Assembly: GCA_021325525.1 (NCBI GenBank)
Contig: JAJPHB010000082.1
Span: 1-35,528, forward strand
Source of the DNA: Alphaproteobacteria bacterium
Lineage (GTDB): Bacteria > Pseudomonadota > Alphaproteobacteria > ATCC43930 > CGMCC-115725
Direction of reading: 5' to 3'
DNA length: 35,528 nt
In this document: in pieces, positions 2,482-31,195 of the stretch
Position numbering within the stretch: position 1 is the first letter of the stretch
How the letters are laid out: each line of letters starts with the position of its first letter
The notes under the pieces: generated by a model
What the model saw: the letters and a program-made list of their open reading frames with translations, nothing else
Told to the model about the DNA's origin: nothing
Databases searched by the model: none
Translations under genes and position numbers: made by a program

Positions 2482-3696
2482 TCATCTGCGTAAGGTCTTA
2501 GTGGGCTGCACTGGAGACCGCCGAGCCACCGCGCAGCGCGGCGTGACGCGGACCGCCCATTTCCCGACCTCTTCGTAGACGGCGGAGACCTTCTCCATCA
2601 CCACCTCGTTGGCGAACTCCGCGACCACCTTGGCGCGACCGGCCTCTCCCATGCGCGCACGCAATATCGGCGACGTCGCAAGCCGGTCGAGGGCAGAGGC
2701 GAGGGCCTGCGGATCACGCGGCGGGACAAGCAGCCCAGTGATGCCGTCGGTCACCACCTCGCGGCATCCCGGGACATTCGTGGTCACGATCGGCCGGGCG
2801 CAGGCGGCCGCTTCGAGCAATGCCTTCGGCAATCCCTCCCGATGCGAGGGCAGCACGGCGATGTGCGCCTCCTTCCAGATTTCGGCGATGTCGTCGCGCG
2901 CGCCGCGCCACTCGATCAGCCCCTGATGGTGCCACGAGAGCAGCGTCGCCTCGCGGATTGCCCCTGGGTTTTCCTCGTCGATCGGTCCGACAAGGACGAT
3001 GCGCAGAGCACTCCCACGCTCTTTCAGCAGCATCGCCGCCTCTACGAGGTCGCCCACCCCTTTCTCCCAAAGCATGCGTCCGACGAGGACGGCAACCGGC
3101 GGCGGCGCCGGTTCGGGCGTTGGAGTGAAGTGGCGTACATCGACGCCCGAGCCGCGGATGATCCGCAGCCCCGCTCGCGGACCGCGCCTGAAGATCAGCG
3201 CCGCGTCGTCCTCGTTTTGGCAAATCGTGATCACTCGCTGCGAGCGCGACAACAGACGCAATAGGTGCAAGAGACAATATCCAGTGGCGCTGGCGACGAT
3301 CTTGCCCGACGCGAAGAGGAAGCCGAAGCCCGTGACGGAATTAACGATGGCGGGAATGCGGGTGAGTTTCGCCGCGATCGTGCCATAAATGGCCGGCTTC
3401 AGCGCGACATTGTGGACGACGCTCGGTCGATGCGCGCGCAGCAGCCGCGCCAGGGCAAGGATCGAGCGCAGCTCGGAAATCGGGCCGAGCCCGGCGCGTC
3501 GTACGGACCAGGGAACCACCTCGACTCCCACGGCCCGGATGCGGTCGCGATAAGGGCCGACTCGGGTGATGAGCACGACCTCATAGCCGAGCCCCTGCGC
3601 CGCGCGCGCGCTCGGCAAGCGATGTGACCAGAAGTACCAATCCTCCGTGACAATGAAAGCGAGTTTTGGGCGCTCGCATGGGGCTGGCGCGCTCAT
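2482..3696 (-). CDS. Glycosyltransferase family 4 (GT-B fold)
   Basis: 404 residues from ATG 3696. The start is set by a four-base ATGA overlap with the stop of the upstream fusion gene, so the two are translationally coupled. The N-terminal acceptor domain begins KLAFIVTEDWYFWSHR, and the GFGFLFASGK segment follows. The C-terminal Rossmann domain has VLVGRMLWEKGVGDLVEAA and the GT4 donor-site E-x7-E motif in REGLPKALLEAA. It closes with TDGITGLLVPPRDPQALA. The family transfers NDP-activated hexose or N-acetylhexosamine to lipid-linked acceptors on the cytoplasmic face. Its place directly after a flippase/ligase-like membrane protein and near an AsnB-type amidotransferase points to cell-surface polysaccharide synthesis. 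The donor sugar cannot be read from sequence. Base composition looks milder than the flanking genes. Confidence 0.87.
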   Translation of the reverse strand: MSAPAPCERPKLAFIVTEDWYFWSHRLPSARAAQGLGYEVVLITRVGPYRDRIRAVGVEVVPWSVRRAGLGPISELRSILALARLLRAHRPSVVHNVALKPAIYGTIAAKLTRIPAIVNSVTGFGFLFASGKIVASATGYCLLHLLRLLSRSQRVITICQNEDDAALIFRRGPRAGLRIIRGSGVDVRHFTPTPEPAPPPVAVLVGRMLWEKGVGDLVEAAMLLKERGSALRIVLVGPIDEENPGAIREATLLSWHHQGLIEWRGARDDIAEIWKEAHIAVLPSHREGLPKALLEAAACARPIVTTNVPGCREVVTDGITGLLVPPRDPQALASALDRLATSPILRARMGEAGRAKVVAEFANEVVMEKVSAVYEEVGKWAVRVTPRCAVARRSPVQPTKTLRR

Positions 3697-5942
3697 CCGG
3701 CTTCGTCGCGAGCTGGTACTTGGCGCTGCGCCGTACGACGAGCGAGGGCCGCGCCGAGAAGAAGCCAAGGCGCACGCTGATAGAGCAGGTCGTGAGCGAG
3801 CCCCATTGTACCGAAGGCGAGGAGGGCGAGGATCAGGAAGTTTCCGGCCGGTTCCCGCGGTTCCCGCTGATGGAACTCGCGCATGAGCACGCGGATCGCG
3901 GGAATGGCGATTGCGGCGAGCCCGATGAGGCCCAGCTCAGCGGCAAGCCAGAGGGGCGTCGAATGGATGACAAGAGGGATGCCGTGCGCGCGCGTGTAGC
4001 CTTCGATGAAGGTGCCGAGTCCGGCGCCGAAGATCGGGTGGGCAATGAAGAGCCTCCATCCTCCGATGAGGCTGATCATCCGTTCGGCATTCGCTCCTTC
4101 GTATCGAGATGCCGCATTGGTGAAGACGGAAGCAGGTGTGAGATTGATGGCGCCATCGTGACCGAACATCGCGAGCAGATGATGGACCGCGACGAGCAGC
4201 AAGGTGACGATCGTGGGCAGATACGCAAAGAGCAGCGTCGCCAGCACGGTGAGGGCGACGGCGACGAGCATGCGACGGGCCGTAACAGCGTGCACAAGAA
4301 CGGCGGCCAACGCTGTAACCAGCAGCGTTCCCCAGCCAGCACGCGACGAGGTCAGCCAGATCGCGAACATCGCTGCGGACAAAACCAGGAGCTGCGTTCG
4401 TCCAGCTCGAAGTGCGGTCGCGGCAGCGGCGAAAACCAGCAGCAATTGTAGTGCGAAAGCGTTCGGATTCTGCGACAGCCCCTCGAGGCGGTAATGAGTA
4501 ATCGCGGCCGGTAGCTGTGCGCCTGCCGTCAGGACAGAGAGCAGCGCCGTGTCAAGCGCGGCGATGGCGAGCCCTACCGCGACATAGGTGCGCAGAAGCA
4601 GGGAAAACCCGCTCTCTCCGGCACGTAGGACGAGGAGCGCGCCAGTCGCACCATAGGCGAGGAGGATGAACCAACCGATCGTACGATTGACAAAAGCCCA
4701 ATCCGTCCAACCAATGGATGACCACCCGTGCAGGAAGGAAAGGAGCAGCACGCCGGTCGCAAAACAGATGTGAAGGTTGAGGCCTGGCAAGCGCCACAAT
4801 GGTGCGTGTCGCCGCGTCACGTGGATCGCGGCGAAGACCACGGCCCCGATGATCGCCGGCGGATCGGCGAGGTTAACATTGAGACGCGCGTTCGCGAGCG
4901 GGACGAAAACCTGGAAGAAGACGGCCGTTGCGGCAGCTATCGGCATGACCCAAACGAGTACTGCCTCGTAGTCGAGGCGATGCGCGGCAGCGGGGACGGT
5001 TGCGACCGAAAGGGTACGGCGCCGCCCCGTCAGAGTGAGCGAGAGCAGTGCCATCAGGGCGGTGATGGCGATGGCGATCGAGCCGATAAGGATCGCGACG
5101 ACCACGGCGTCGTCGCTGGCGAACCCGACCAAGCCCAGTGCATAGACGGTGCTCAGTTCGCGAATGCCCCAACCAGCAAAGCTCACCGGGAGCGCCGCGG
5201 CCAACATGACCACTGCCGATGCGGCGGCAAGGTTTGTCACGGCAGATTCCGGCATCAGCGCTCGAGCCAGCGACACGTAAGCGCTCATCGTCAAGAGCTG
5301 AACGCCGGCGCTGAGCACCAGGGTGCGCGCGATACGCCTGAGCGCGCCGCCGCCGAAGGCCGCCTCAATGAAGCGCTGAGCCGACGCGCCCCAGCCGAAC
5401 GCGGCGCCGGCACCCGCGGCTAGGGCGATCCCGCCGAGGACTTCCGCGAGGACGGCCCCATCGGCGTCGAGATCCCAGGTGATCCTACCAAAAAGAAATA
5501 ATCCGCCCCAGAGGGCAAGCCCGAGAGAGATCGCCACGGCGCAGAGCCGCTCGTAACCGGTGAGGACAATGGCGCCCGCCACGGGAACACCGTGGCGGCC
5601 AAGAAAGGCGCTTCGCGCAATCGTTTGCCCGACCACCTGGAAGAACGCGCTGCCGCCAAGCTGGCCGAGACTCAGCGCCGCCACTGCATGCCGAGCGGAC
5701 AGACGATAACCGAGATCGCTTGCCGCTAATTTGATGCGCAGACAGGAAAGCGCAAAGCCGCCGCTCAGAGCCGTGATGGCGATGGCCATATGGCCCGGGT
5801 CGATCCTGGCGAACGAATAGCGGAGCCCATTCAGATCGATGCGATCGATCACGGCGATCACGCAAAAAGCCGTTAGGAGCAGGACCGAGGAATAGCGCAG
5901 AAACGGCGCCGCACCCCCGAATATCCGGTCAACAGGCCGCAT
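3693..5942 (-). CDS. Fusion membrane protein: UPF0104/LPG-synthase-TM flippase-like domain plus O-antigen ligase/polymerase domain
   Basis: 749 residues from ATG 5942, with a purine-rich AGGTGGGAA upstream; a longer in-frame start at 6041 is not needed. Residues about 15-310 form a polytopic domain of the UPF0104/lysylphosphatidylglycerol-synthase TM type. The evidence is GQLGGSAFFQVVGQ, a Y-ER pair at 130-132, and GWGIREL at 258-263, a position where this family carries a conserved G-x-G-x-R-E motif. Residues about 325-735 form a second polytopic domain with Wzy_C/WaaL character: GLSQNPNAFA, TSSRAGWGTL at 531-540, then HPIFGAGLGTF and IHSTPLWLAAELGLIGL, which carry the conserved Arg and His of the large periplasmic loop region. 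Family knowledge suggests handling of lipid-linked glycans in the inner membrane. Putting both domains on one chain is unusual. It is coupled to the GT4 gene by an ATGA overlap. Confidence 0.75.
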   Translation of the reverse strand: MRPVDRIFGGAAPFLRYSSVLLLTAFCVIAVIDRIDLNGLRYSFARIDPGHMAIAITALSGGFALSCLRIKLAASDLGYRLSARHAVAALSLGQLGGSAFFQVVGQTIARSAFLGRHGVPVAGAIVLTGYERLCAVAISLGLALWGGLFLFGRITWDLDADGAVLAEVLGGIALAAGAGAAFGWGASAQRFIEAAFGGGALRRIARTLVLSAGVQLLTMSAYVSLARALMPESAVTNLAAASAVVMLAAALPVSFAGWGIRELSTVYALGLVGFASDDAVVVAILIGSIAIAITALMALLSLTLTGRRRTLSVATVPAAAHRLDYEAVLVWVMPIAAATAVFFQVFVPLANARLNVNLADPPAIIGAVVFAAIHVTRRHAPLWRLPGLNLHICFATGVLLLSFLHGWSSIGWTDWAFVNRTIGWFILLAYGATGALLVLRAGESGFSLLLRTYVAVGLAIAALDTALLSVLTAGAQLPAAITHYRLEGLSQNPNAFALQLLLVFAAAATALRAGRTQLLVLSAAMFAIWLTSSRAGWGTLLVTALAAVLVHAVTARRMLVAVALTVLATLLFAYLPTIVTLLLVAVHHLLAMFGHDGAINLTPASVFTNAASRYEGANAERMISLIGGWRLFIAHPIFGAGLGTFIEGYTRAHGIPLVIHSTPLWLAAELGLIGLAAIAIPAIRVLMREFHQREPREPAGNFLILALLAFGTMGLAHDLLYQRAPWLLLGAALARRTAQRQVPARDEAG

Positions 5943-6109
5943 CAAGTTCCCACCTGGGCACGCGTTTCGCCGATCATAACGACAGGATTTCGCAGGTCGA
6001 AGCAAGAAACATGCTGTGAGGAATTTCGGCACCGGTGCCACTGTCTCGGGCTAGGCTGTGCCGACAAATGCTGCTATGCCGTTGGCGAGCGTGACGGCGG
6101 GTTAACCAG

Positions 6110-8068
6110 GTGTGCGGACTGGCTGGCATCTTCGATCGTCGGGCGCGGGCCGACGCTGCGGTGCTAAGGCGACAAGCGAGCGCAATGGCAGGTAGCTTGC
6201 GTCACCGCGGACCCGATGGCAGCGGTTCCTGGGTCGACGGCGAGGCCGGCATCGCTTTGGGCCATCAGCGTCTCGCCGTGATCGATCTGTCTTCCTCGGG
6301 CGCGCAGCCGATGGTTTCGGCAGATGGCCGCATTGTGCTCGTATATAACGGCGAGCTGTATAATTACCGCGAGTTGCGGTGTGCGCTAGACGGCGCGCGC
6401 TCGCCGCCCTGGCGCAGCCAATCGGACTCAGAGGTATTGGTCGAGGCGATCGCCGCCTGGGGCGTCGAGAGAGCACTTGAGCGCGCCAACGGCATGTTCG
6501 CCTTTGCCGCATGGCATCGGACCGAGCGATGGCTTGCGCTGGCGCGCGATCGCCTGGGCATCAAGCCGCTCTATTGGGCGCGCTTTGGCGAAATCTTCGT
6601 GTTCGGGTCCGAACTTCGCGCTTTGCGGGCGCATCCCGCCTGGCGGGCAACCCTCGACCCGACGGCGATCGCACGATTCCTGCGGTACAGCAACGTGCCG
6701 GCGCCGGCCTCGATCTTCGCGGGCGTCTACAAGCTGGAGCCCGGCACGCTGCTCACCATCAACTCCTCCGGCGAGGTGCGGAGCCACCGCTACTGGGACC
6801 CGGTGCGGCTCTGCGAGCGCGACGCGGGCCTGCGCAGGGCGACGCTCGGTGAGGCGGCCGAGCGCGTCGAGAATTTGCTGCGCGATGCCGTGCGACGCCA
6901 GATGACAGCTGATGTGCCGATCGGCGCATTCCTTTCGGGCGGCATTGACTCGAGCGCCGTGGTCGCGATGATGCGACAGGTGCAACCGGGACCTGTTAGC
7001 AGTTTCACGATCGGCTTCGCGGAGTCCTCGCACGATGAATCCGCCCATGCGCGCCGCATCGCTCAGCATCTCGGAACATATCACGAATCACTGGTGGTGA
7101 CGCCGGCGGAAGCGCTCGCGGTCATTCCGCGCCTTACCGAGATCTATGATGAGCCCTTTGCCGATTCTTCGCAGATTCCGGCGGTACTCGTCGCCACGTT
7201 GGCGCGGCGCCATGTCAAGGTGGTCCTTTCGGGCGATGGGGGGGACGAGGTCTTCGCCGGCTACAACCGCCATCGCCTCGCCGCGCTCCATTCGACGCTG
7301 GCGATGGCGCCGTCGCTGCTGAGGCGCGCCTTTGCTGCAGCCTTGCGCGCAGTCCCTCCGACGGCATGGGAGGGCCTGGCCGGCTTGGTTCTTGCGCACC
7401 ATTGTCCGCCACAACTAGCGGACAAGCTCACCAAGCTGGCGGCAGTGCTGGCTACGGCGACGCCAATCGATGCTTATCGCCGCCTCACAGGCGTGGGGCC
7501 GCTGAGCACGGGCGAGGAGTCCTTTGATGCTGTTGCAGCGGCTCTCTCGGCCGAGCGCGATCCTGTACGCCTCATGCAATGTCTTGACCTTGCCTGGTAT
7601 TTGCCCAACGACGTCCTCACAAAGGTCGACCGAGCGAGCATGGCTGTCGGCCTCGAAGTTCGGGTCCCCATGCTCGACCACCGCCTCGTCGAGCTCGTGT
7701 GGAGCCTTCCCCGTCGCCTCCTCCTGCACCGCGGCGCCGGTAAGCGCGTCCTGCGCTTGATCCTCGCTCGCTACGTGCCACCAAATCTGACGGCACGTCC
7801 GAAGAGCGGCTTCGCCGTGCCGCTCGGCGCTTGGCTGCGCGGCCCACTGCGAGACTGGGCAGAGGAGTTCCTCGCCACCTCGCGCCTGCGCCAGATCCCG
7901 TCTCTCGATGTGGCCGGGGCGAGGGCCGCCTGGGCGGCGCACCTCACCGGCCGTACCAACCGCGAACATTTCCTTTGGAACGTGCTGATGCTCAGCACCT
8001 GGCTCGATCGCGAACGACGAACGCAGCGATCGGCATCGTCGCCAGCTGTGGGCGCAAGCGCATCATGA
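6110..8068 (+). CDS. asnB: Asparagine synthase (glutamine-hydrolysing) type amidotransferase
   Basis: 652 residues. The start is GTG 6110 because the class II glutaminase needs Cys as residue 2 (MCGLAGIF) and no other start gives that. The N-terminal domain has LRHRGPDGSG, LGHQRLAVIDL and YNGELYNY, the set expected for an active glutaminase. The synthetase domain has the ATP-pyrophosphatase P-loop SGGIDSS at 276-282 and LSGDGGDEVFAGY. The family converts aspartate, glutamine and ATP to asparagine. Copies in exopolysaccharide loci often act instead on sugar carboxylates or other surface substrates. It diverges from the fusion membrane gene across a 167-bp intergenic region, which supports a role in the same polysaccharide cassette (inference). 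Its stop lies 33 bp from the convergent stop of rne. Confidence 0.88.
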   Translation: MCGLAGIFDRRARADAAVLRRQASAMAGSLRHRGPDGSGSWVDGEAGIALGHQRLAVIDLSSSGAQPMVSADGRIVLVYNGELYNYRELRCALDGARSPPWRSQSDSEVLVEAIAAWGVERALERANGMFAFAAWHRTERWLALARDRLGIKPLYWARFGEIFVFGSELRALRAHPAWRATLDPTAIARFLRYSNVPAPASIFAGVYKLEPGTLLTINSSGEVRSHRYWDPVRLCERDAGLRRATLGEAAERVENLLRDAVRRQMTADVPIGAFLSGGIDSSAVVAMMRQVQPGPVSSFTIGFAESSHDESAHARRIAQHLGTYHESLVVTPAEALAVIPRLTEIYDEPFADSSQIPAVLVATLARRHVKVVLSGDGGDEVFAGYNRHRLAALHSTLAMAPSLLRRAFAAALRAVPPTAWEGLAGLVLAHHCPPQLADKLTKLAAVLATATPIDAYRRLTGVGPLSTGEESFDAVAAALSAERDPVRLMQCLDLAWYLPNDVLTKVDRASMAVGLEVRVPMLDHRLVELVWSLPRRLLLHRGAGKRVLRLILARYVPPNLTARPKSGFAVPLGAWLRGPLRDWAEEFLATSRLRQIPSLDVAGARAAWAAHLTGRTNREHFLWNVLMLSTWLDRERRTQRSASSPAVGASAS

Positions 8069-8101
8069 CGCCGCGCTTCGCCGGGGTCCCAATCGCTCGA
8101 C

Positions 8102-11047
8102 TCAGGACTGCATCAGCCGCTGCCACCAGCCGCGCTTGGGGTTCGCCGGTTTCTCGGTGACGAGCGTCGGCTCCGGCATGGTCGATCCGCTGCCGGGCGG
8201 GGCCGGGTGAGGTTCCGTTTCGGCTGAGGGGGCGGCCGGCGCGGCTTCGCCGGCCCCGGCCTCGGCGGGAGCAGCGTCGCCGGCCGGCGGCTCGGCCGGC
8301 TGCGGTGGCTGGTGCGAAGCCTCGCCGTGCCGGGTGTCGGCGCCGTCGGCAACCGGCGCCGAAGCGGCGCCGATCGCCTCCTCGGCGACGCTCACCGGCG
8401 AGACGGAGAAGGCGGCTGCGATCGACTGCTCGGCCGGCTCGTCCTCGCGTCCGACCGGCGCCGGGACGATCTCGATGGTATCGGCCGCAGCATGGGGCGC
8501 CGCGCCGGGTTTCGAGGCGGAAGCGGGCGCATGGCCGTCTTCGCCGCCCGCCGGCGCCTCCCCGTGCATCCGCCGCCGGCCGCCGCGCCGGCCGCGCCGC
8601 CGGCGGCGGCGCCCCGCACCCTCGTCCTCCGCCGCGGCGCCCGGAGGCGCCGCCTCCGCGCTCTCGGCCGCCGCCGCCTCGGCATGGGCCGCGCCGGCTT
8701 CGTGCCCGCTCATCGCCATTTCCGTCGCTTCGCCTTCGCCCGCACCCGGCGGGGGGTGATGCGCGAATCCGGCCTCGTGCTCCTCGCCCGGCCGGCGGCG
8801 CCGGCGGCGCCGGCGGCGGCGGCGGCCGCGCTCCTCCTCGCCCGCCGCCTCCGGCCGCTCGGCGGCGGACGGCGCTTGCTCCGCCGCCTCCGCCTCCTCG
8901 TCCTCCTCGATCTCGGCGGGCGGCGGAATCTGGGCCACCGCGGCGGGAATCGCCGCGGCTTCCGCCGCCGTCAAGGCGCGCAGGCGCTCGAGGCGGAAGG
9001 CGGGCGGGATGAGGCTGTCATCGCGCCCCAGCGTGACGCGGAAGCCGTAGCGCTGCTCGATCTGCGCCAGCGCCTCGCGCTTCTGGTTGAGGATGTAAAG
9101 CGCGACATTGGTCGGAACGTAGAGGCAGATCTCGGCCGAGCGCCGGCGAATGCCTTCCTCCTCGATGGCGCGCAGCACGTGGAGGGCGGTCGATTCGGTC
9201 GAGCGGATATGGCCCGTGCCGTTGCAATGCGGGCAGGGCTGGGTCGAGGCCTCGACCAGCGACGGGCGCAGGCGTTGGCGCGACAGCTCCAGGAGGCCGA
9301 AGGGGCTGATCCGGCCCAATTGGATGCGCGCCCGGTCGTGCCGCATCGCGTCTTTGAGGCGGCGCTCGACCGCGCTCTGGTTGCGATGCTCCTCCATGTC
9401 GATGAAGTCGATGACGATGAGCCCGGCGAGGTCGCGCAGGCGCAACTGGCGCGCGATCTCCTCGGCGGCTTCGAGATTGGTGCGGAGCGCCGTCTCCTCG
9501 ATATTGCGCTCCTTGGTCGAGCGGCCGGAATTGACGTCGATCGCGACCAGCGCCTCCGTCGGGTTGATGACGATGTAGCCGCCGGAGCGGAGCTGCACCA
9601 CCGGCGAATGGATCGCGTCGATCTGGGTCTCGACCTGGAAGCGGTGAAGGAGGGGGATGGCCGGGTCGCGATAGGGCTGGACGCGCTTCGCATGGCTCGG
9701 CATCAGCATCTTCATGAAGGCTTTCGCCGTCTTGTAGCCTTCCTCGCCTTCGACCAGCACCTCGTCGATGTCGCGCGTATAGAGGTCGCGGATCGAGCGC
9801 TTGATGAGGTTGCCCTCCTCATAGATGAGGGCCGGCGCCGTCGATTGCAGCGTGAGGTTCCGGATCTCGTCCCAGAGGCGGAGCAGGTATTCGAGGTCGC
9901 GCTTGATCTCCGCCTTGGAGCGCTCGCTGCCGGCGGTGCGGACGATGACCCCCATGCCCTCGGGCAGGTCGAGATCGTCGAGAATCTCCTTGAGGCGCCG
10001 GCGGTCGGCGACGCTGGTGATCTTGCGCGAGACGCCGCCGCCGCGCGCCGTGTTGGGCATGAGGACGCAGTAGCGCCCGGCGAGCGAGAGATACGTGGTG
10101 AGCGCCGCGCCCTTGTTGCCCCGCTCCTCCTTCGTCACCTGCACCAGCATGATCTGGCGCCGCTTGATGACCTCCTGGATCTTGTAATGCCGCAGCGAGC
10201 GCGAGCGCTGTCGCGCCGCCTCTTCGAACTCGTCGCCGCCGACCGTCTCGATGGTGTGCGCCTCGCCCGCCCGTTCCATCGACGCTTCATGCGCGACCTC
10301 GGCGGCGGCTTCCACCGCCTCGGCCGCCGCATCCGTCTCCGCCGCCGATGCGGCTTCGCTCGAGGTCGTCTCCGGAACGGCTCGGGTCAGGACATCGTGG
10401 GGGCTTGCCTCCGCCTGGCTCCGCGGCTCCGGGGCTGCGGCCTCGGCCGTGTCGGCGCCGGCGGCCGGCGCCTGCGGATAAGCTGCCGCATCCGCCTCCG
10501 CCGCCGCGAGCGGCGCCGGTGCGGGAGCGCTCGGCGCGTCCTCGGCGGGCGCAGGCGGGTCCGGCTCGACGGCACCACGATCGGCGGCGCCGTCCTCGGC
10601 CGGCTCGTCCTCGCTTCCGCCGCCGGGCTCCGCTGCGACAGCGGGGGCAGCCGGTTCCTCATCCCAAGGCAGCCTTTCCTCGGCGGCGGCGATGCCCTCC
10701 TCGAGCGCGTTCGACTGGGGCTCCGGCGGCGCGCCCGCGGGCTCATGCTGCGCCTCGTCGCCCCCATCATGGTCCTGCTCGCGGTGCGGGCGGTCGCCGA
10801 CCGGGATGCGGTAGTAGTCGGGATGGATCTCGCTGAAGGCGAGGAAGCCGTGACGGTTGCCGCCGAATTCGACGAAGGCGGCCTGCAGCGACGGCTCTAC
10901 GCGCGTCACCTTGGCGAGGTAGATGTTGCCTTTTACCTGTTTCTTGGTCGAAGTCTCGAAATCGAACTCGTCGAGACGGTTGCCGTCGAGGACGACGACC
11001 CGAGTCTCCTCGGAATGCGTCGCATCGATGAGCATGCGTTTTGCCAT
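8102..11047 (-). CDS. rne: Ribonuclease E
   Basis: 981 residues from ATG 11047 (MAKRMLIDATHSEETR), with GGAG upstream. The S1 RNA-binding domain (from about residue 38) is split by a roughly 200-residue Ala/Glu/Pro-rich acidic insertion (about 84-285) and resumes at KIQEVIKRRQIMLVQVTKEERG. The catalytic DNase I-like subdomain has both Mg-binding aspartates: AIDVNSG (Asp504) and IDFIDM (Asp547). CPHC at 605-608 is the Zn-link that joins protomers into the tetramer. The small domain ends near residue 700. A disordered tail follows with arginine runs near residues 760 and 850, the degradosome-scaffold/RNA-binding style of alphaproteobacterial RNase E. It cleaves single-stranded AU-rich RNA and matures rRNA and tRNA. 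A long antisense frame over this gene is a GC artefact. Confidence 0.95.
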   Translation of the reverse strand: MAKRMLIDATHSEETRVVVLDGNRLDEFDFETSTKKQVKGNIYLAKVTRVEPSLQAAFVEFGGNRHGFLAFSEIHPDYYRIPVGDRPHREQDHDGGDEAQHEPAGAPPEPQSNALEEGIAAAEERLPWDEEPAAPAVAAEPGGGSEDEPAEDGAADRGAVEPDPPAPAEDAPSAPAPAPLAAAEADAAAYPQAPAAGADTAEAAAPEPRSQAEASPHDVLTRAVPETTSSEAASAAETDAAAEAVEAAAEVAHEASMERAGEAHTIETVGGDEFEEAARQRSRSLRHYKIQEVIKRRQIMLVQVTKEERGNKGAALTTYLSLAGRYCVLMPNTARGGGVSRKITSVADRRRLKEILDDLDLPEGMGVIVRTAGSERSKAEIKRDLEYLLRLWDEIRNLTLQSTAPALIYEEGNLIKRSIRDLYTRDIDEVLVEGEEGYKTAKAFMKMLMPSHAKRVQPYRDPAIPLLHRFQVETQIDAIHSPVVQLRSGGYIVINPTEALVAIDVNSGRSTKERNIEETALRTNLEAAEEIARQLRLRDLAGLIVIDFIDMEEHRNQSAVERRLKDAMRHDRARIQLGRISPFGLLELSRQRLRPSLVEASTQPCPHCNGTGHIRSTESTALHVLRAIEEEGIRRRSAEICLYVPTNVALYILNQKREALAQIEQRYGFRVTLGRDDSLIPPAFRLERLRALTAAEAAAIPAAVAQIPPPAEIEEDEEAEAAEQAPSAAERPEAAGEEERGRRRRRRRRRRRPGEEHEAGFAHHPPPGAGEGEATEMAMSGHEAGAAHAEAAAAESAEAAPPGAAAEDEGAGRRRRRRGRRGGRRRMHGEAPAGGEDGHAPASASKPGAAPHAAADTIEIVPAPVGREDEPAEQSIAAAFSVSPVSVAEEAIGAASAPVADGADTRHGEASHQPPQPAEPPAGDAAPAEAGAGEAAPAAPSAETEPHPAPPGSGSTMPEPTLVTEKPANPKRGWWQRLMQS

Positions 11048-26538: not shown

Positions 26539-26594
26539 CAGGGGGAGGGTAGCCCCCAATGCCGGCGCTGTCGCCGGTTTGAGCACCGAGCATG

Positions 26595-26630
26595 CCCTCA
26601 CCCCGACCCTTTTCCGCGAGAGGGAGAGGG
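26595..26630. repeat. Second half of the REP-like element next to anmK
   Basis: CCCTCACCCCGACCCTTTTCC followed by GCGAGA and GGGAGAGGG. The arms 26607-26615 and 26622-26630 pair with two G-T wobbles. With the palindrome at 26515 it probably forms one composite element of about 120 bp. The upstream in-frame ATG of anmK at 26592 lies at its edge, a reason to doubt that start. Confidence 0.55.
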
Positions 26631-26648
26631 CGATGCCGGGAGCGGCAA

Positions 26649-27725
26649 TTGAGCGACGCCTCCGTCCACCCGCTGCGGGTCGTCGGCCTCATGAGCGGCA
26701 CCTCGCTCGACGGCATCGATGCGGCCTTCATCGAGACGGACGGCGCGGCCATGGTGCGGCCGGGACCCTCGCTCACCATCCCCTATGCCGAGGAGCTGCG
26801 CCGGGCGTTGCGCGGCGTCCTCGGCGGCAAGGGGCCGGTGGCGGCGGTCGAGCGCGCGCTGACCGAGGCGCATGCCGAGGCGGTGCGGCGCCTTCTCGGC
26901 GAGCACCAGCTCGACGCCGAGCTCGTCGGCTTTCACGGCCATACCATCCTGCACCGGCCGCAGGAGCGGCGGACCTGGCAGATCGGCGACGGCGCCCTCC
27001 TCGCGCGGCTCACCGGGCTCGATGTCGTCTGCGACTTCCGCAGCGCCGATGTGGCGGCGGGCGGCGAGGGCGCGCCCCTCGTCCCGCTCTTTCATGCCGG
27101 GCTCGCCGCCGGCTTCGAGAAGCCGGTCGCCATCCTCAATATCGGCGGCGTCGCCAACGTCACCTGGCTCGGCGACGCGCCCGAGGCGGTTCTCGCCTTC
27201 GACACCGGGCCCGGCAACGCTCTCATCGACGATTGGGCGCTGCGCCATACGGGCGAGGCCATCGACCGCGACGGCGCCCTGGCGCGCGCCGGCACGGCCG
27301 ATGAGGCGCGCCTTGCCGCCTTCCTCGCCCATCCCTATTTCGACCGCCCGCCGCCCAAATCGCTCGACCGCGATGATTTCGCCGCGAGCCTCGCGGACGG
27401 CCTCTCGCCCGCCGATGGCGCGGCGACGCTGACGGCGATGACGGCGGCCGCCGTCGCGCGCGCCGCGGAGCATTTTCCGGCGCCGGCGCGGCGCTGGCTC
27501 GTCACCGGCGGCGGGCGCCGCAATCCGGCCTTGATGGCGGCGCTGCAAGCGCAGCTCCGCCTTCCGGTCGAGCCGGTCGAGACCGTGGGCTGGGACGGCG
27601 ATGCGCTCGAGGCGCAGGCCTTCGCGTATCTCGCGGTGCGCTCGCTGCGCGGGCTGCCGCTCACAGTGCCGGGAACGACGGGGGCGCCGCGCCCGATGAG
27701 CGGCGGCCGCCTCCACCGCGCCTGA
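26649..27725 (+). CDS. anmK: Anhydro-N-acetylmuramic acid kinase
   Basis: 358 residues if translation starts at TTG 26649, which has GGGAG six bases upstream and leaves a short lead-in to VVGLMSGTSLDGIDAAF. ATG 26592 would add 19 residues encoded by a dispersed repeat, so I prefer TTG. The ASKHA fold is visible: phosphate-1 MSGTSLDGID, GFHGHTILHRPQ, LNIGGVANVTWLG, FDTGPGNALIDDW and the adenosine motif WLVTGGGRRNPALM. It phosphorylates and opens 1,6-anhydro-MurNAc to MurNAc-6-phosphate in cytoplasmic peptidoglycan recycling. The pseudokinase gene follows 74 bp downstream on the same strand. Confidence 0.93.
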   Translation: MSDASVHPLRVVGLMSGTSLDGIDAAFIETDGAAMVRPGPSLTIPYAEELRRALRGVLGGKGPVAAVERALTEAHAEAVRRLLGEHQLDAELVGFHGHTILHRPQERRTWQIGDGALLARLTGLDVVCDFRSADVAAGGEGAPLVPLFHAGLAAGFEKPVAILNIGGVANVTWLGDAPEAVLAFDTGPGNALIDDWALRHTGEAIDRDGALARAGTADEARLAAFLAHPYFDRPPPKSLDRDDFAASLADGLSPADGAATLTAMTAAAVARAAEHFPAPARRWLVTGGGRRNPALMAALQAQLRLPVEPVETVGWDGDALEAQAFAYLAVRSLRGLPLTVPGTTGAPRPMSGGRLHRA

Positions 27726-27799: not shown

Positions 27800-29818
27800 A
27801 TGGCCAGAGAGGCGCGCAGCCGGGCCGCGCCCGAGGCGACGGTCGGCCTCGACGATTACGCGATCCATGCGGACCGGCCTCTCGCCGAGCTGCGGTCGGG
27901 CGCCAACATGGCCTATCTCGCCGATCGCGGCGACGGCGCCGAGCCGGCCTTCTTCGCCCTCATCTGCGAGCGCGCGGCGCTGCCGCGGGTCGATATCATG
28001 CCGCGGCTGCGGCGCCTCGAAGCACCGAACCTGCTGACGCCGCTCGCCTGGGGACCCGTCGACTGGCCGCTCAGCGGGCGGCGGCATCTCGCCATTCTCT
28101 ACGCGAAACCCGCGGGCGGGCGGTGCGTCGCGACGCTAGAGGAGACGACATCGCCGCTCGGCGAGGAGGACGCGCTTCGCCTCTTCCTCCGCCGCGTCGT
28201 GCCGGGGCTCAAGGCCCTGCACGAGGCCGGCATCGTCCATGGCGCCGTCAATCCCGCAAATCTGTTCTTCCGCGACGATGCGCGCCGGCAGTTCGTGCTC
28301 GGCGAATGCGCCAGCACCCGCCCCGCTGTCTCGCAGCCGGCGGCTTTCGCGCCGATCGAAATGGCGATGGCGGCGCCCGGGGCGCGCGGGCAGGGCCAGC
28401 CGGCGGACGACGTCTTCGGCCTCGGCGCGACGCTCGTCTTCCTGCTGCTCGGCCGCAATCCGGCGGCGGGCCTCGACGAGACGCCGCTGCTGCGCGCCCG
28501 CATCGACAGCGGCTCCTACACGGCGCTCGTCGGCGACAAGCGCCTGCCGGTCGGCCTCATCGAACTGCTGCGGGGCCTGCTCGCCGACGACGCCAAGATC
28601 CGCTGGACCATCGCCGAGGTCGAGGAGTGGCTGGCCTCGCGCCACGCCGTGACGCGCCAGGGGCTCGGGCTGAAGCGCGCGGCACGGCCCTTCGACTTCG
28701 CGGGCCGCTCCTATTTCACGGCGCGCGCGCTCGCCTTCGCCTTCGCCGGCAATCCGGGCGCCGCGGCCGCCGCGGTCCGCAGCGATTTCGAGCCCTGGGT
28801 GCAGCGGGCCCTCGGCGACGAGACAAGTATCAAGCTGCTGCGCGCCGCGCTCAACGAGCCCGGCTCCGAAAGCCGCACGGAAAGCCGCGATGCGTCGCTA
28901 GCGGCGCGCGCCGGGATCGCCCTCGATCTCCTGGCGCCGGTGCGCTACCGCGGCCTCAGCGCCATGCCTGACGGGCTCGGCGGCGCTCTCGTCGATGCCG
29001 TCACCGGCGGCGGCGACGTTCAAGCCATCGCCGAGGCGGTGGCGCAGCGCGTGCCACAATTCTGGCTGGCGGCGCGCAGCGCCACGGCACCCGAGCACGC
29101 GCAGCTCTACAAGCTCTTCGAGCGCCTCCGCCTGCAGCTCGACGACCGCCGCCTCGGCTGCGGCGTCGAGCGCCTGCTCTACGAGCTCAATCCCGGCCTC
29201 CACTGCCTCTCGCCGCTGATCGAGGCCGATTACGTCATGGCGATGAGCGAGGTGCTGCCGGCGCTGGAGAAGCGGGCGGCGAACGAGTTCGGCGGCCGCC
29301 ATCCGCTCGACCGGCATCTCGCCGCCTTCATCGCGGCGAAGCTGAAGACGATCGCCAATGACTGGATGGACGATCTCTCCAGCGACAAGCCGAAGGAGAA
29401 GCTCCTCGGGACGCTGCGTCTTCTCGTGCGCTTGCAGGCGCTGGGCGGCACCGCGGCCGTGCCGGCGCTGGCGCGCTGGCTCGCGCGGCAGGCGGCGCCG
29501 TTCATCGACGAGTTCCACCATCGCCCGACGCGCAAGCGCCTCGCTGCCCAGCTCGAGCGCGCGACGCAATCCGGGCGCTTGCACGACATGCTCTTCGCCA
29601 TCGACGATCCGGAAGAGAAGCGCCGCGATGAAGCCGGTTTCGCCGAGGCGCGCCGCGCCCACGCTGCGGTCGCCGCCGAGCTGAAGCGGGCCGCTGCCGC
29701 CGCCGAGGGACCGCAGCGCGCCAAGCAGATCGAGGCGCTCGCCGGGCAATTGGCGGCAGGGCTCGCGACCGCGCTGGCGGCGGCGGCGCTCGCCGGCTCC
29801 GCCGTGGTGCTGGGCTGA
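27800..29818 (+). CDS. Tail-anchored pseudokinase (Ser/Thr-kinase-like)
   Basis: 672 residues from ATG 27800. Residues about 18-280 have a protein-kinase outline: FFALICERA (51-59) where YALK would be, VPGLKALHEAGIVHGAVNPANLFF (134-157) for the HRDLKPxN loop, FAPIEMA for APE, and PADDVFGLGATLVFLLLGRNP (201-221) for the SDIYSLGxxLxxLLTGxxP helix. The three catalytic residues are missing: the ATP-site Lys, the HRD Asp (HGA) and the DFG Asp (GEC). Residues 300-640 are mostly helical with no family I recognise. The last 22 or so residues (LAAGLATALAAAALAGSAVVLG) form a C-terminal membrane tail. The stop overlaps the next start as TGATG. It is likely a membrane-tethered scaffold or nucleotide sensor; function is inferred only. 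Confidence 0.68.
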   Translation: MAREARSRAAPEATVGLDDYAIHADRPLAELRSGANMAYLADRGDGAEPAFFALICERAALPRVDIMPRLRRLEAPNLLTPLAWGPVDWPLSGRRHLAILYAKPAGGRCVATLEETTSPLGEEDALRLFLRRVVPGLKALHEAGIVHGAVNPANLFFRDDARRQFVLGECASTRPAVSQPAAFAPIEMAMAAPGARGQGQPADDVFGLGATLVFLLLGRNPAAGLDETPLLRARIDSGSYTALVGDKRLPVGLIELLRGLLADDAKIRWTIAEVEEWLASRHAVTRQGLGLKRAARPFDFAGRSYFTARALAFAFAGNPGAAAAAVRSDFEPWVQRALGDETSIKLLRAALNEPGSESRTESRDASLAARAGIALDLLAPVRYRGLSAMPDGLGGALVDAVTGGGDVQAIAEAVAQRVPQFWLAARSATAPEHAQLYKLFERLRLQLDDRRLGCGVERLLYELNPGLHCLSPLIEADYVMAMSEVLPALEKRAANEFGGRHPLDRHLAAFIAAKLKTIANDWMDDLSSDKPKEKLLGTLRLLVRLQALGGTAAVPALARWLARQAAPFIDEFHHRPTRKRLAAQLERATQSGRLHDMLFAIDDPEEKRRDEAGFAEARRAHAAVAAELKRAAAAAEGPQRAKQIEALAGQLAAGLATALAAAALAGSAVVLG

Positions 29819-30294
29819 TGGGAGAGGCCGTCGCCAAGGCCGAGCGGCGGACCGGCGCCGGAGCGACGAAGCTCGGCCTCGCCGCTCTCCTCGCCGCGGC
29901 GCTCGCCCTCATGCCGGTATCGATGATCCTCGTCCCCGGCATGATGCCGAGCATCATCGTCTACTGCATCGACCAGCGCCGGCCGCGCTATCTCTCCTAC
30001 GCCGTCGGCATCATGAATTTCGCCGGCGTGCTGCCCTTTCTCCTCGTTCTCCTCGCCGGCGACGGGCTGAGCCTCCTCGCCGCGGCGCGCCTGCTCTCCG
30101 ATCCTTTTGTCTGGCTCGTCATGTATGGCGCGGCGGCGGCGGGCTGGGGCGTCTTCCTGACCACCCCGGTTCTGGCGCGCATCTGCATCGAGATCCGCGC
30201 GAGCCAGGATCGGCGGACGCTCGAAGCGCTGTCCAAGGCGCTGCGCGATGAATGGGGCGAGGAGGTCGCTGGCGGCGCCAGGGAGGAAGGCTGA
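29818..30294 (+). CDS. Small multi-pass membrane protein coupled to the pseudokinase
   Basis: 158 residues, starting within TGATG at the pseudokinase stop, so translation is coupled. There are three or four hydrophobic segments: about 18-50 (possibly two, split near VPGMMPS), 62-81 and 97-122. They are followed by a charged cytoplasmic-looking helix, RICIEIRASQDRRTLEALSKALRDEWGEE. The motif MMPSIIVYCIDQRRPRYLSYAVG between segments is distinctive. No family is recognised. With the tail-anchored pseudokinase it probably forms an inner-membrane complex. It is convergent with rpoH, with only 13 bp between stops. Confidence 0.68.
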   Translation: MGEAVAKAERRTGAGATKLGLAALLAAALALMPVSMILVPGMMPSIIVYCIDQRRPRYLSYAVGIMNFAGVLPFLLVLLAGDGLSLLAAARLLSDPFVWLVMYGAAAAGWGVFLTTPVLARICIEIRASQDRRTLEALSKALRDEWGEEVAGGAREEG

Positions 30295-30307: not shown

Positions 30308-31195
30308 TCACGCGTTGATGAGGCGCCGCTCCATCGCCGCCGATTTGATCGCCTTCTGCAGCTTCTCGAAGGCGCGCACCTCGATCTGCCGCACCCGCTC
30401 GCGCGAGATGCCGTATTTCTGCGACAGGTCCTCGAGCGTCGTCGGCTGCTCCAGTAGGCGCCGGTGCGTCAGAATGTCGCGCTCGCGCTCGTTGAGATGG
30501 CCCATCGCCTTGACGAGGAGATCGCGACGCAGGCCCAGCTCCTGCCTCTCGCCGAGCTTCGTCTCCTGGCTCTCGCCTTCATCGACGAGCCAGTCCTGCC
30601 ACTCGCCCTCGCTGTCGGTGCGCAGCGGCGCGTTCAGCGAATGATCGGGGCTGGCGAGGCGCCGGTTCATGCTGACGACGTCAGCCTCCGGCACGTCGAG
30701 CTCGGTCGCGATCTTCTTTACGTTCTCCGGCGAAAGGTCGCCCTCCTCGATCGCCTGAAGCTGGCCCTTCAGCTTGCGCAGGTTGAAGAAGAGCTTCTTC
30801 TGCGCCGCCGTCGTTCCCATCTTCACCAGCGACCAGGAATGGAGGATGTATTCCTGGATGGCGGCCCGAATCCACCACATGGCGTAGGTCGCCAGGCGAA
30901 AGCCGCGATCAGGGTCGAAGCGCTTCACCGCCTGCATCATGCCGACATTGCCTTCGGAGATGAGCTCGGAGAGCGGCAGCCCATAGCCGCGATAGCCCAT
31001 CGCGATCTTGGCGACGAGGCGCAAATGGCTCGTCACCAGCCGTTGTGCGGCCTCCGGATCCTCATGCTCCTTCCAGCGCTTGGCGAGCATGTATTCTTCC
31101 TCGGCCCCCAGCATCGGAAATTTGCGGATTTCCTGCAGATAGCGGGCAAGATTGCCTTCCGAGGAGATGCTTGGGACGCGCGCGATGCTTGTCAT
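30308..31195 (-). CDS. rpoH: RNA polymerase heat-shock sigma factor RpoH (sigma-32)
   Basis: 295 residues from ATG 31195 with GGTGGAG upstream. The RpoH box QKKLFFNLR at 132-140 distinguishes it from RpoD. Region 2 has SEGNVGMMQAVKRFDPDRGFRLATYAMWWIRAAIQEYIL. Region 4.2 has LEDLSQKYGISRERVRQIEVRAFEKLQKAI for -35 recognition. It directs heat-shock transcription in the cytoplasm. It lies 114 bp after rluD on the same strand, in an AT-rich gap with its own promoter candidate. Confidence 0.96.
   Translation of the reverse strand: MTSIARVPSISSEGNLARYLQEIRKFPMLGAEEEYMLAKRWKEHEDPEAAQRLVTSHLRLVAKIAMGYRGYGLPLSELISEGNVGMMQAVKRFDPDRGFRLATYAMWWIRAAIQEYILHSWSLVKMGTTAAQKKLFFNLRKLKGQLQAIEEGDLSPENVKKIATELDVPEADVVSMNRRLASPDHSLNAPLRTDSEGEWQDWLVDEGESQETKLGERQELGLRRDLLVKAMGHLNERERDILTHRRLLEQPTTLEDLSQKYGISRERVRQIEVRAFEKLQKAIKSAAMERRLINA

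Follow-up and report, generated by a model that had tools for sequence, protein, structure and literature searches.

The 35,528-nucleotide contig JAJPHB010000082.1 of an Alphaproteobacteria bacterium (assembly GCA_021325525.1; this whole stretch is referred to here as the window) carries two overlapping genes encoding a tail-anchored pseudokinase and a small membrane protein. These proteins are probably the subunits of a dedicated complex in the inner membrane, with the pseudokinase serving as a noncatalytic scaffold or switch. The pair has the following features, all on the forward strand:

27800..29818, forward strand: tail-anchored pseudokinase gene, an intact open reading frame (ORF) of 672 amino acids, with homologues in 131 of 387 genomes of the class
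29818..30294, forward strand: membrane partner gene, an intact ORF of 158 amino acids, whose family occurs in 129 of the 131 genomes with the pseudokinase and in 0 of 256 others (E up to 1e-5)
29816..29820, forward strand: TGATG stop/start overlap, in which the stop TGA (29816-29818) overlaps the start ATG (29818-29820)

The original prediction, made from the letters of this DNA, had placed both genes at these coordinates and had pointed out the overlap; both frames are unbroken there, and the TGATG is present in the sequence, coupling the two genes. A comparable spacing is seen elsewhere, with the partner start lying at -11 to +27 nucleotides in 71 of 77 homologous pairs (starts picked by rule). 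Among the papers that searches of an open-license PubMed Central library brought up, none was recognized as describing the pair.

Distribution and pairing of the two genes

One set of 387 alphaproteobacterial genomes (completeness of at least 90%) was searched with profiles of both proteins, at thresholds of E up to 1e-20 for the pseudokinase and up to 1e-5 for the partner. The pseudokinase was found in about one third of these sampled genomes, and the two genes are adjacent in 125 of the 387. Two of the 131 pseudokinase genomes lack a partner match: G388, with one kinase match (E of 3.1e-24), and G322, the locus of which does hold a divergent adjacent partner. Since homologues are this widespread, a chance reading frame is excluded, and the related idea of an ordinary decayed kinase, to which the low similarity to known kinases might seem to point, is already refuted as well, with virtually no probability left to it: the homologues have lost the same residues and come with the same partner.

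Adjacency is the rule, contrary to the possibility, raised beforehand, that the two genes would rarely be neighbors in other genomes. Among the 150 kinase matches listed, 135 have the partner at most 500 nucleotides downstream on the same strand. Seven of the 15 exceptions are apparent fragments or contig ends (G271, G299, G332 [twice], G146, G385, and G394); the others are five second copies (G123, G158, G240, G309, and G372), separated genes in G228 and G298, and the aforementioned G322. Similarly, the partner lies beside the pseudokinase in 76 of 80 named loci; in the other four, the locus is at a contig edge (L082 and L117) or the partner is on another contig (L077, from Roseospira, and L110). 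Both genes are thus unlinked yet retained in G228, in G298, and in the genomes of L077 and L110, and such persistence is stronger evidence for a joint function than adjacency. Two or three complete pairs are present in eight genomes, and 25 of the 131 pseudokinase genomes are 2.0 Mb or smaller (rounded sizes). Named genera with the pair include Magnetospirillum, Thalassospira, and Azospirillum, of which some species are genetically tractable.

Two minor observations concern copies that are not paired. In L185 (a second pseudokinase copy) and L159 (a separated partner gene), the orphan adjoins a same-looking gene, presumably resembling ychF, judging by its start (MGFNC); this might be coincidence. 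In L158 (6243-8666), from a genome with a split pair, the pseudokinase is flanked by a PP-loop (tilS-like) gene on one side and a DUF3141 gene on the other.

Kinase fold and loss of the catalytic residues

The first protein has an N-terminal domain with the outline of a protein kinase, in which the three canonical catalytic residues are replaced:

27833..28642, forward strand: kinase-fold domain, residues 12-281, matching PknB and WNK3 structures
27965..27967, forward strand: Cys56 in place of the VAIK lysine; of 141 distinct homologues, 5 of them gapped at this position, 77 have Cys and 0 have Lys
28238..28261, forward strand: catalytic-loop remnant HGAVNPAN, residues 147-154; Ala149 replaces the HRD Asp, Asn154 is kept
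28295..28303, forward strand: DFG remnant V166-L167-G168; Asp at 166 in 0 of 141, Gly168 in 134 of 141

The AlphaFold2 model of the pseudokinase, built on an alignment of 72 sequences, has a mean predicted local distance difference test (pLDDT) score of 90.8 and a predicted template-modeling (pTM) score of 0.85. In this model, residues 12-281 match the PknB kinase domain (2fum_A) with a TM-score of 0.76 by target length and WNK3 with a Z-score of 23.6 and a root mean square deviation of 2.7 over 249 residues, WNK kinases being the best structural matches. By its predicted two-lobed fold, the domain is a member of the protein kinase superfamily, and the absence of a kinase fold, which would have undone the original prediction, was not what structure prediction returned. 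At the level of sequence profiles, the relationship is more distant: Pfam family PF00069 (Pkinase) matches residues 121-274 at an E of 1.4e-6, with 28.3 bits falling below the curated gathering cutoff of 31.7, and matches 69 of 72 family members at E up to 1 (the gathering cutoff having been applied to the window protein only). The two stretches that had first drawn attention to the kinase outline, HGAVNPANLFF and DDVFGLGATLVFLLLGRNP, correspond to residues 147-157 and 203-221, respectively.

Just as originally proposed, the window protein lacks the ATP-site lysine and the HRD and DFG aspartates, which are replaced by Cys56, Ala149, and Val166, and its homologues have not kept them either. None of the three residues occurs in any of the 72 aligned sequences, 71 of which come from named loci, and among the 141 distinct homologues, Lys is found at position 56 in none, Asp at position 149 in one, and Asp at position 166 in none. 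In contrast, positions that support the fold are kept: D204 in 137, R268 in 137, N154 in 135, and G168 in 134 of 141, counts in which the 141 include rows gapped at the position. His occupies position 147 in 130 of 141, one of Ala, Ser, Gly, or Asn occupies position 149 in 122 of 141, R63 is near-invariant (133 of 141), and an acidic residue mostly follows Gly168. Because all three catalytic residues are nearly absent across the family while fold-supporting positions persist, their loss, as read from the alignment, is old and uniform rather than a sign of recent decay. With a kinase fold and at least one canonical catalytic residue missing, the protein is a pseudokinase by sequence definition; it does not belong among the active Ser/Thr kinases, as the VAIK Lys, HRD Asp, and DFG Asp that mark those enzymes are found in 0, 1, and 0 of 141.

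L051 (HGDIRPTN), the sole homologue to carry the HRD Asp, lacks the other two catalytic residues.

We also considered whether the altered residues of the kinase remnant might still bind a nucleotide or other ligand and support a new activity, like the AMPylation by SelO or the glutamylation by SidJ, precedents described in PMC12599244. The retention of Asn154 and of a mostly acidic residue after Gly168, the near-invariance of R63, and the Cys that is likewise described at the VAIK position of WNK kinases, the best structural matches, are all compatible with this. Nevertheless, such an activity appears unlikely, since all three motifs are degraded, and since SelO and SidJ, according to the same source, retain the VAIK Lys and a DFG-type Asp, of which this family has neither. 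A WNK-like migrated lysine was rejected as well: residue 37, in the glycine-loop region, which by our own reading is the equivalent of the WNK lysine, is Lys in 17 of 72 and Arg in 4 of 72 sequences, so that no basic residue is conserved there.

Helical domain and membrane anchor of the pseudokinase

Beyond the kinase fold, residues ~290-672 are almost wholly helical in the AlphaFold2 model, ending in the anchor:

28667..29614, forward strand: C-terminal helical domain, residues 290-605, with conserved G453xGxER458xxY461, C469xS471, and D504RH506
29756..29812, forward strand: C-terminal membrane anchor, residues ~653-671, by hydropathy; hydrophobic tail also in homologues

Of the columns that are at least 95% identical (137 sequences), 10 lie in the kinase C-lobe and 12 in residues 451-605, the latter including E457, R458, Y461, C469, S471, D504, and H506. 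A profile of residues 292-640 matched 20 of 397 genomes, and all 20 loci carry the kinase part too, in two pieces in L170 and from profile position 80 onward in L184; this search was set up at the level of the phylum, and all genomes listed, matched or not, belong to the same class, so that it does not reach outside Alphaproteobacteria. Outside the kinase part, Pfam families do not recur, matching 1 of 72 members at most (among 25 of 27 families). An internal repeat (288-356 versus 376-450), which the likeness of the two segments suggested, was dismissed, as profile comparison gave a probability of 0.2%.

These conserved columns, and the occurrence of the domain only together with the kinase part in the 20 genome matches, could mean that the actual work is done by the helical domain, as an enzyme or a ligand-binding module under the control of the pseudokinase and its partner. 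We regard this as slightly more doubtful still than an altered activity of the kinase remnant: the conserved residues could equally be structural, and the structural matches are taken up by the kinase domain, the listed alignments of the whole model stopping at residue 282 or before.

The hydrophobic tail that had been noticed at the C terminus is borne out by hydropathy, both in the window protein and in 135 of 137 testable homologues. A median of 3 residues follows it (72 sequences), which places the anchor at the extreme end of the protein.

Membrane partner protein

The partner has the following features:

29869..29970, forward strand: hydrophobic segment, residues 18-51, with breaks at 31 and 42; a possible hairpin of AlphaFold2 helices
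29992..30060, forward strand: predicted transmembrane helix, residues 59-81 (AlphaFold2 helix 58-82; composition)
30106..30177, forward strand: predicted transmembrane helix, residues 97-120, running on as a long helix to residue 146
30253..30258, forward strand: invariant Trp146-Gly147 of a C-terminal EWG(E/D)(E/D)V-like motif; WG in 67 of 67 partners

Its AlphaFold2 model (pLDDT of 90.4) contains helices at residues 14-30, 32-41, 43-51, 58-82, 86-93, and 96-146, a set compatible with the three or four membrane passes expected at the outset. Over 67 aligned partners, the N terminus is basic, the loop at 52-58 is net basic, the loop at 82-96 is acidic, and the C terminus is charged. Judging by this charge pattern, the chain would form a hydrophobic hairpin and then cross the membrane twice, leaving its N and C termini in the cytoplasm. 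No Pfam family recurs among the partners (at most 3 of 67 members at E up to 1), and no solved fold was matched (best PDB hit at an E of 1.6), an absence that is still compatible with a known fold.

Proposed mode of action

In the model that we favor, the pseudokinase and its helical domain would be cytoplasmic and held at the membrane by the C-terminal anchor, while the small partner would sit in the membrane with its two termini on the cytoplasmic side, its long C-terminal helix, with the invariant WG motif, probably docking on the pseudokinase. The pseudokinase most likely neither binds ATP nor phosphorylates; instead, its kept kinase C-lobe and a conserved face of the helical domain may hold a cytoplasmic client at the membrane. 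Co-occurrence lends good support to the two-protein unit within the earlier claim of a dedicated inner-membrane complex, and near one-to-one co-occurrence would indeed predict such a complex; physical binding, like the topology, the lack of nucleotide binding, and the scaffolding, is what we infer.

Several observations weigh against this model. The second pseudokinase copies in G123, G158, G240, G309, and G372 have no listed partner nearby, and G054 (L152-L154) and G169 each contain three partner copies with no pseudokinase nearby; because of these orphans, pairing is not obligatory for extra copies. Mirror-tree analysis showed no clear excess for the pair (r of 0.875) over pseudokinase and purA (0.869; 36 loci), and partial correlations were close too (0.58 versus 0.54). 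Since the purA correlations nearly equal those of the pair, coevolution beyond shared ancestry is not demonstrated. Additionally, among the 18 loci in which purA and rpoH are both missing from the surrounding 2 kb, 7 do not have the partner next to the pseudokinase, and neither the clustering of flanking ORFs in 80 named loci, which merged overlapping frames and which small genes could therefore escape, nor neighbor scans revealed a conserved third gene pointing to a process.

A bolder version, which we consider conceivable but rather improbable, holds that the pair is a hitherto unrecognized inner-membrane machine of Alphaproteobacteria, retained as a core unit even in genomes of 1.4 to 2 Mb, in which the pseudokinase gates the helical domain, itself new, as the active or client-binding part (with its near-invariant E-R, C-S, and D-R-H residues), and a partner of unseen fold senses the membrane and drives the switch.

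Comparison with known pseudokinases and kinases

Bacterial pseudokinases are largely unexplored experimentally, and seven families have been annotated (ActPs1-3, GLW, CP1, DYD, and DLHK; PMC12599244). A close parallel in mode of action is EssB/YukC, likewise a membrane-anchored pseudokinase that has lost all three motifs and serves as a scaffold in a membrane machine (PMC12599244). However, EssB/YukC sits in the type VIIb secretion system of Firmicutes (PMC12599244), whereas the present family occupies an alphaproteobacterial housekeeping locus, follows its kinase fold with a long helical domain, and has an extreme C-terminal anchor and a small membrane partner; the neighbors identified around it (purA, hisZ, rpoH, rluD, or anmK) do not make up a type VIIb secretion locus. 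Similarly, the pseudokinase domain of ActPs3/MviN shares degraded motifs and a membrane link and is reported to bind neither ATP nor Mg (PMC12599244). ActPs3 differs in being mainly actinobacterial, with its domain inside MviN, a membrane protein of peptidoglycan synthesis, and in its motifs (VALT, Lsidhpsr, and Y--, compared with ALIC, HGAVNPAN, and VLG in the window protein; PMC12599244). EssB/YukC and the MviN domain are precedents for the way of working; none of the tests made marks them as relatives.

GLW pseudokinases have GLW in place of HRD and LLLL/W for the lysine strand (PMC12599244), whereas this family mostly has H(R/G)(A/S/G/N) and an ALIC-like strand. In view of the residues found at positions 147 and 149, a GLW assignment, as that group is described, was rejected, and the section on GLW in the source mentions no comparable helical domain or partner (PMC12599244). 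A CP1 pseudokinase, described as having a COG3899 domain and no transmembrane region, was rejected too, given the tail anchor and the lack of a recurring nonkinase Pfam family. The ALIC, HGAVNPAN, and VLG motifs also differ from the descriptions of ActPs2, ActPs3, DYD, and DLHK, and ActPs1 is mainly actinobacterial (PMC12599244). As far as the motifs described there go, the present proteins seem to fit none of these groups, and we therefore regard them as a pseudokinase family marked by a helical domain and a membrane partner of its own. Its relevance lies in its size and its uniform degradation, in about a third of the sampled Alphaproteobacteria.

With PknB-type bacterial Ser/Thr kinases, the family shares the fold but, throughout, not the catalytic residues. 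The NCBIfam model of LanL, the class IV lanthionine synthetase, matched residues 118-284 only, with 53.6 bits against a cutoff of 650, and was discarded, as was the MADS6 defense kinase, which matched residues 113-280 only (E of 1.1e-9). The latter match, together with those of the kinase region to the PADLOC defense kinases MkoA (E of 9e-13) and PD-T4-6 (E of 1e-11) and a weak match of the partner to CARF (E of 0.0034, residues 12-43), might hint at a phage-defense system. We consider this extremely unlikely: the pair occupies mostly one housekeeping-type locus, the 37.4 bits of MADS6 are far under its cutoff of 460, phage records contained no match at E up to 1e-5, and the CARF match comprises 32 mostly hydrophobic residues and is probably due to chance.

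Gene neighborhood

Two genes flank the pair in the window, both outside the unit:

26592..27725, forward strand: anmK, the upstream neighbor (NCBIfam E of 3.5e-149)
30308..31195, reverse strand: rpoH, the convergent neighbor, which lies downstream and convergent in 64 of 98 loci

Across 98 related loci (a set that includes a few duplicates and some contigs that end early), purA is located upstream on the same strand in 77 and hisZ in 68, while rpoH and rluD, encoded on the other strand, each occur downstream in 64; purA, hisZ, rpoH, and rluD were the only recurrent identified neighbors. When sufficient flanks were required, purA was found within 2 kb in 77 of 101 loci, anmK in 2 of 101, and rpoH in 54 of 95. 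Of the 91 loci in which both flanks are present, 18 have neither purA nor rpoH at 2 kb or less, and the partner is adjacent in 11 of those 18. Azospirillum thermophilum exemplifies the common order (hisZ, purA, "serine/threonine protein kinase," "hypothetical protein," and rpoH), and Azospirillum ramasamyi retains the pair in a different setting. The pair carries the same two annotations in both records, and the "hypothetical protein" matches the partner profile in each; the "serine/threonine protein kinase" label is probably wrong for the pseudokinase. The housekeeping-gene placement, together with the retention in small genomes, suggests a core rather than an accessory role.

The upstream gene had been correctly recognized as anmK, from which a possible envelope-sensing role had been deduced. 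A sensor of envelope stress or peptidoglycan recycling tied to anmK would fit the membrane location, and besides the window, anmK is directly upstream in 4 of the 98 related loci, which amount to three separate sites (L072, L073, and a third represented by both L075 and L031); the flanks of some close relatives were too short for a judgment. However, hisZ-purA takes that place in most relatives. Since few relatives share the anmK neighbor, we interpret it as a local arrangement without functional clue, which leaves the envelope-sensing role unsupported and very unlikely.

An equally small chance is given to a function tied to the usual neighbors, that is, to purine synthesis (purA) or the heat shock sigma factor (rpoH). 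While the upstream hisZ-purA and the convergent downstream rpoH-rluD are kept in many loci, rpoH is on the opposite strand, the purA match ends ~100 to 620 nucleotides before the pseudokinase match in all of the 77 purA loci except L121, the 18 loci mentioned above have neither gene close by, and the neighbors resemble ordinary housekeeping genes.

Two further loci settings deserve mention. In L037, from a genome of 1.9 Mb, six genes arranged head to tail adjoin the pair (2788-8936, minus strand), each encoding ~330 to 350 amino acids and all beginning alike (MPESKAYELP-like); two scanned copies of these tandem genes had no Pfam match. Finally, the metagenome-assembled records of L079 (Stygiobacter sp.) and L107 (Anaerolineae) show the typical alphaproteobacterial order of hisZ, purA, pseudokinase, and partner, suggesting that they are mislabeled or mixed bins.

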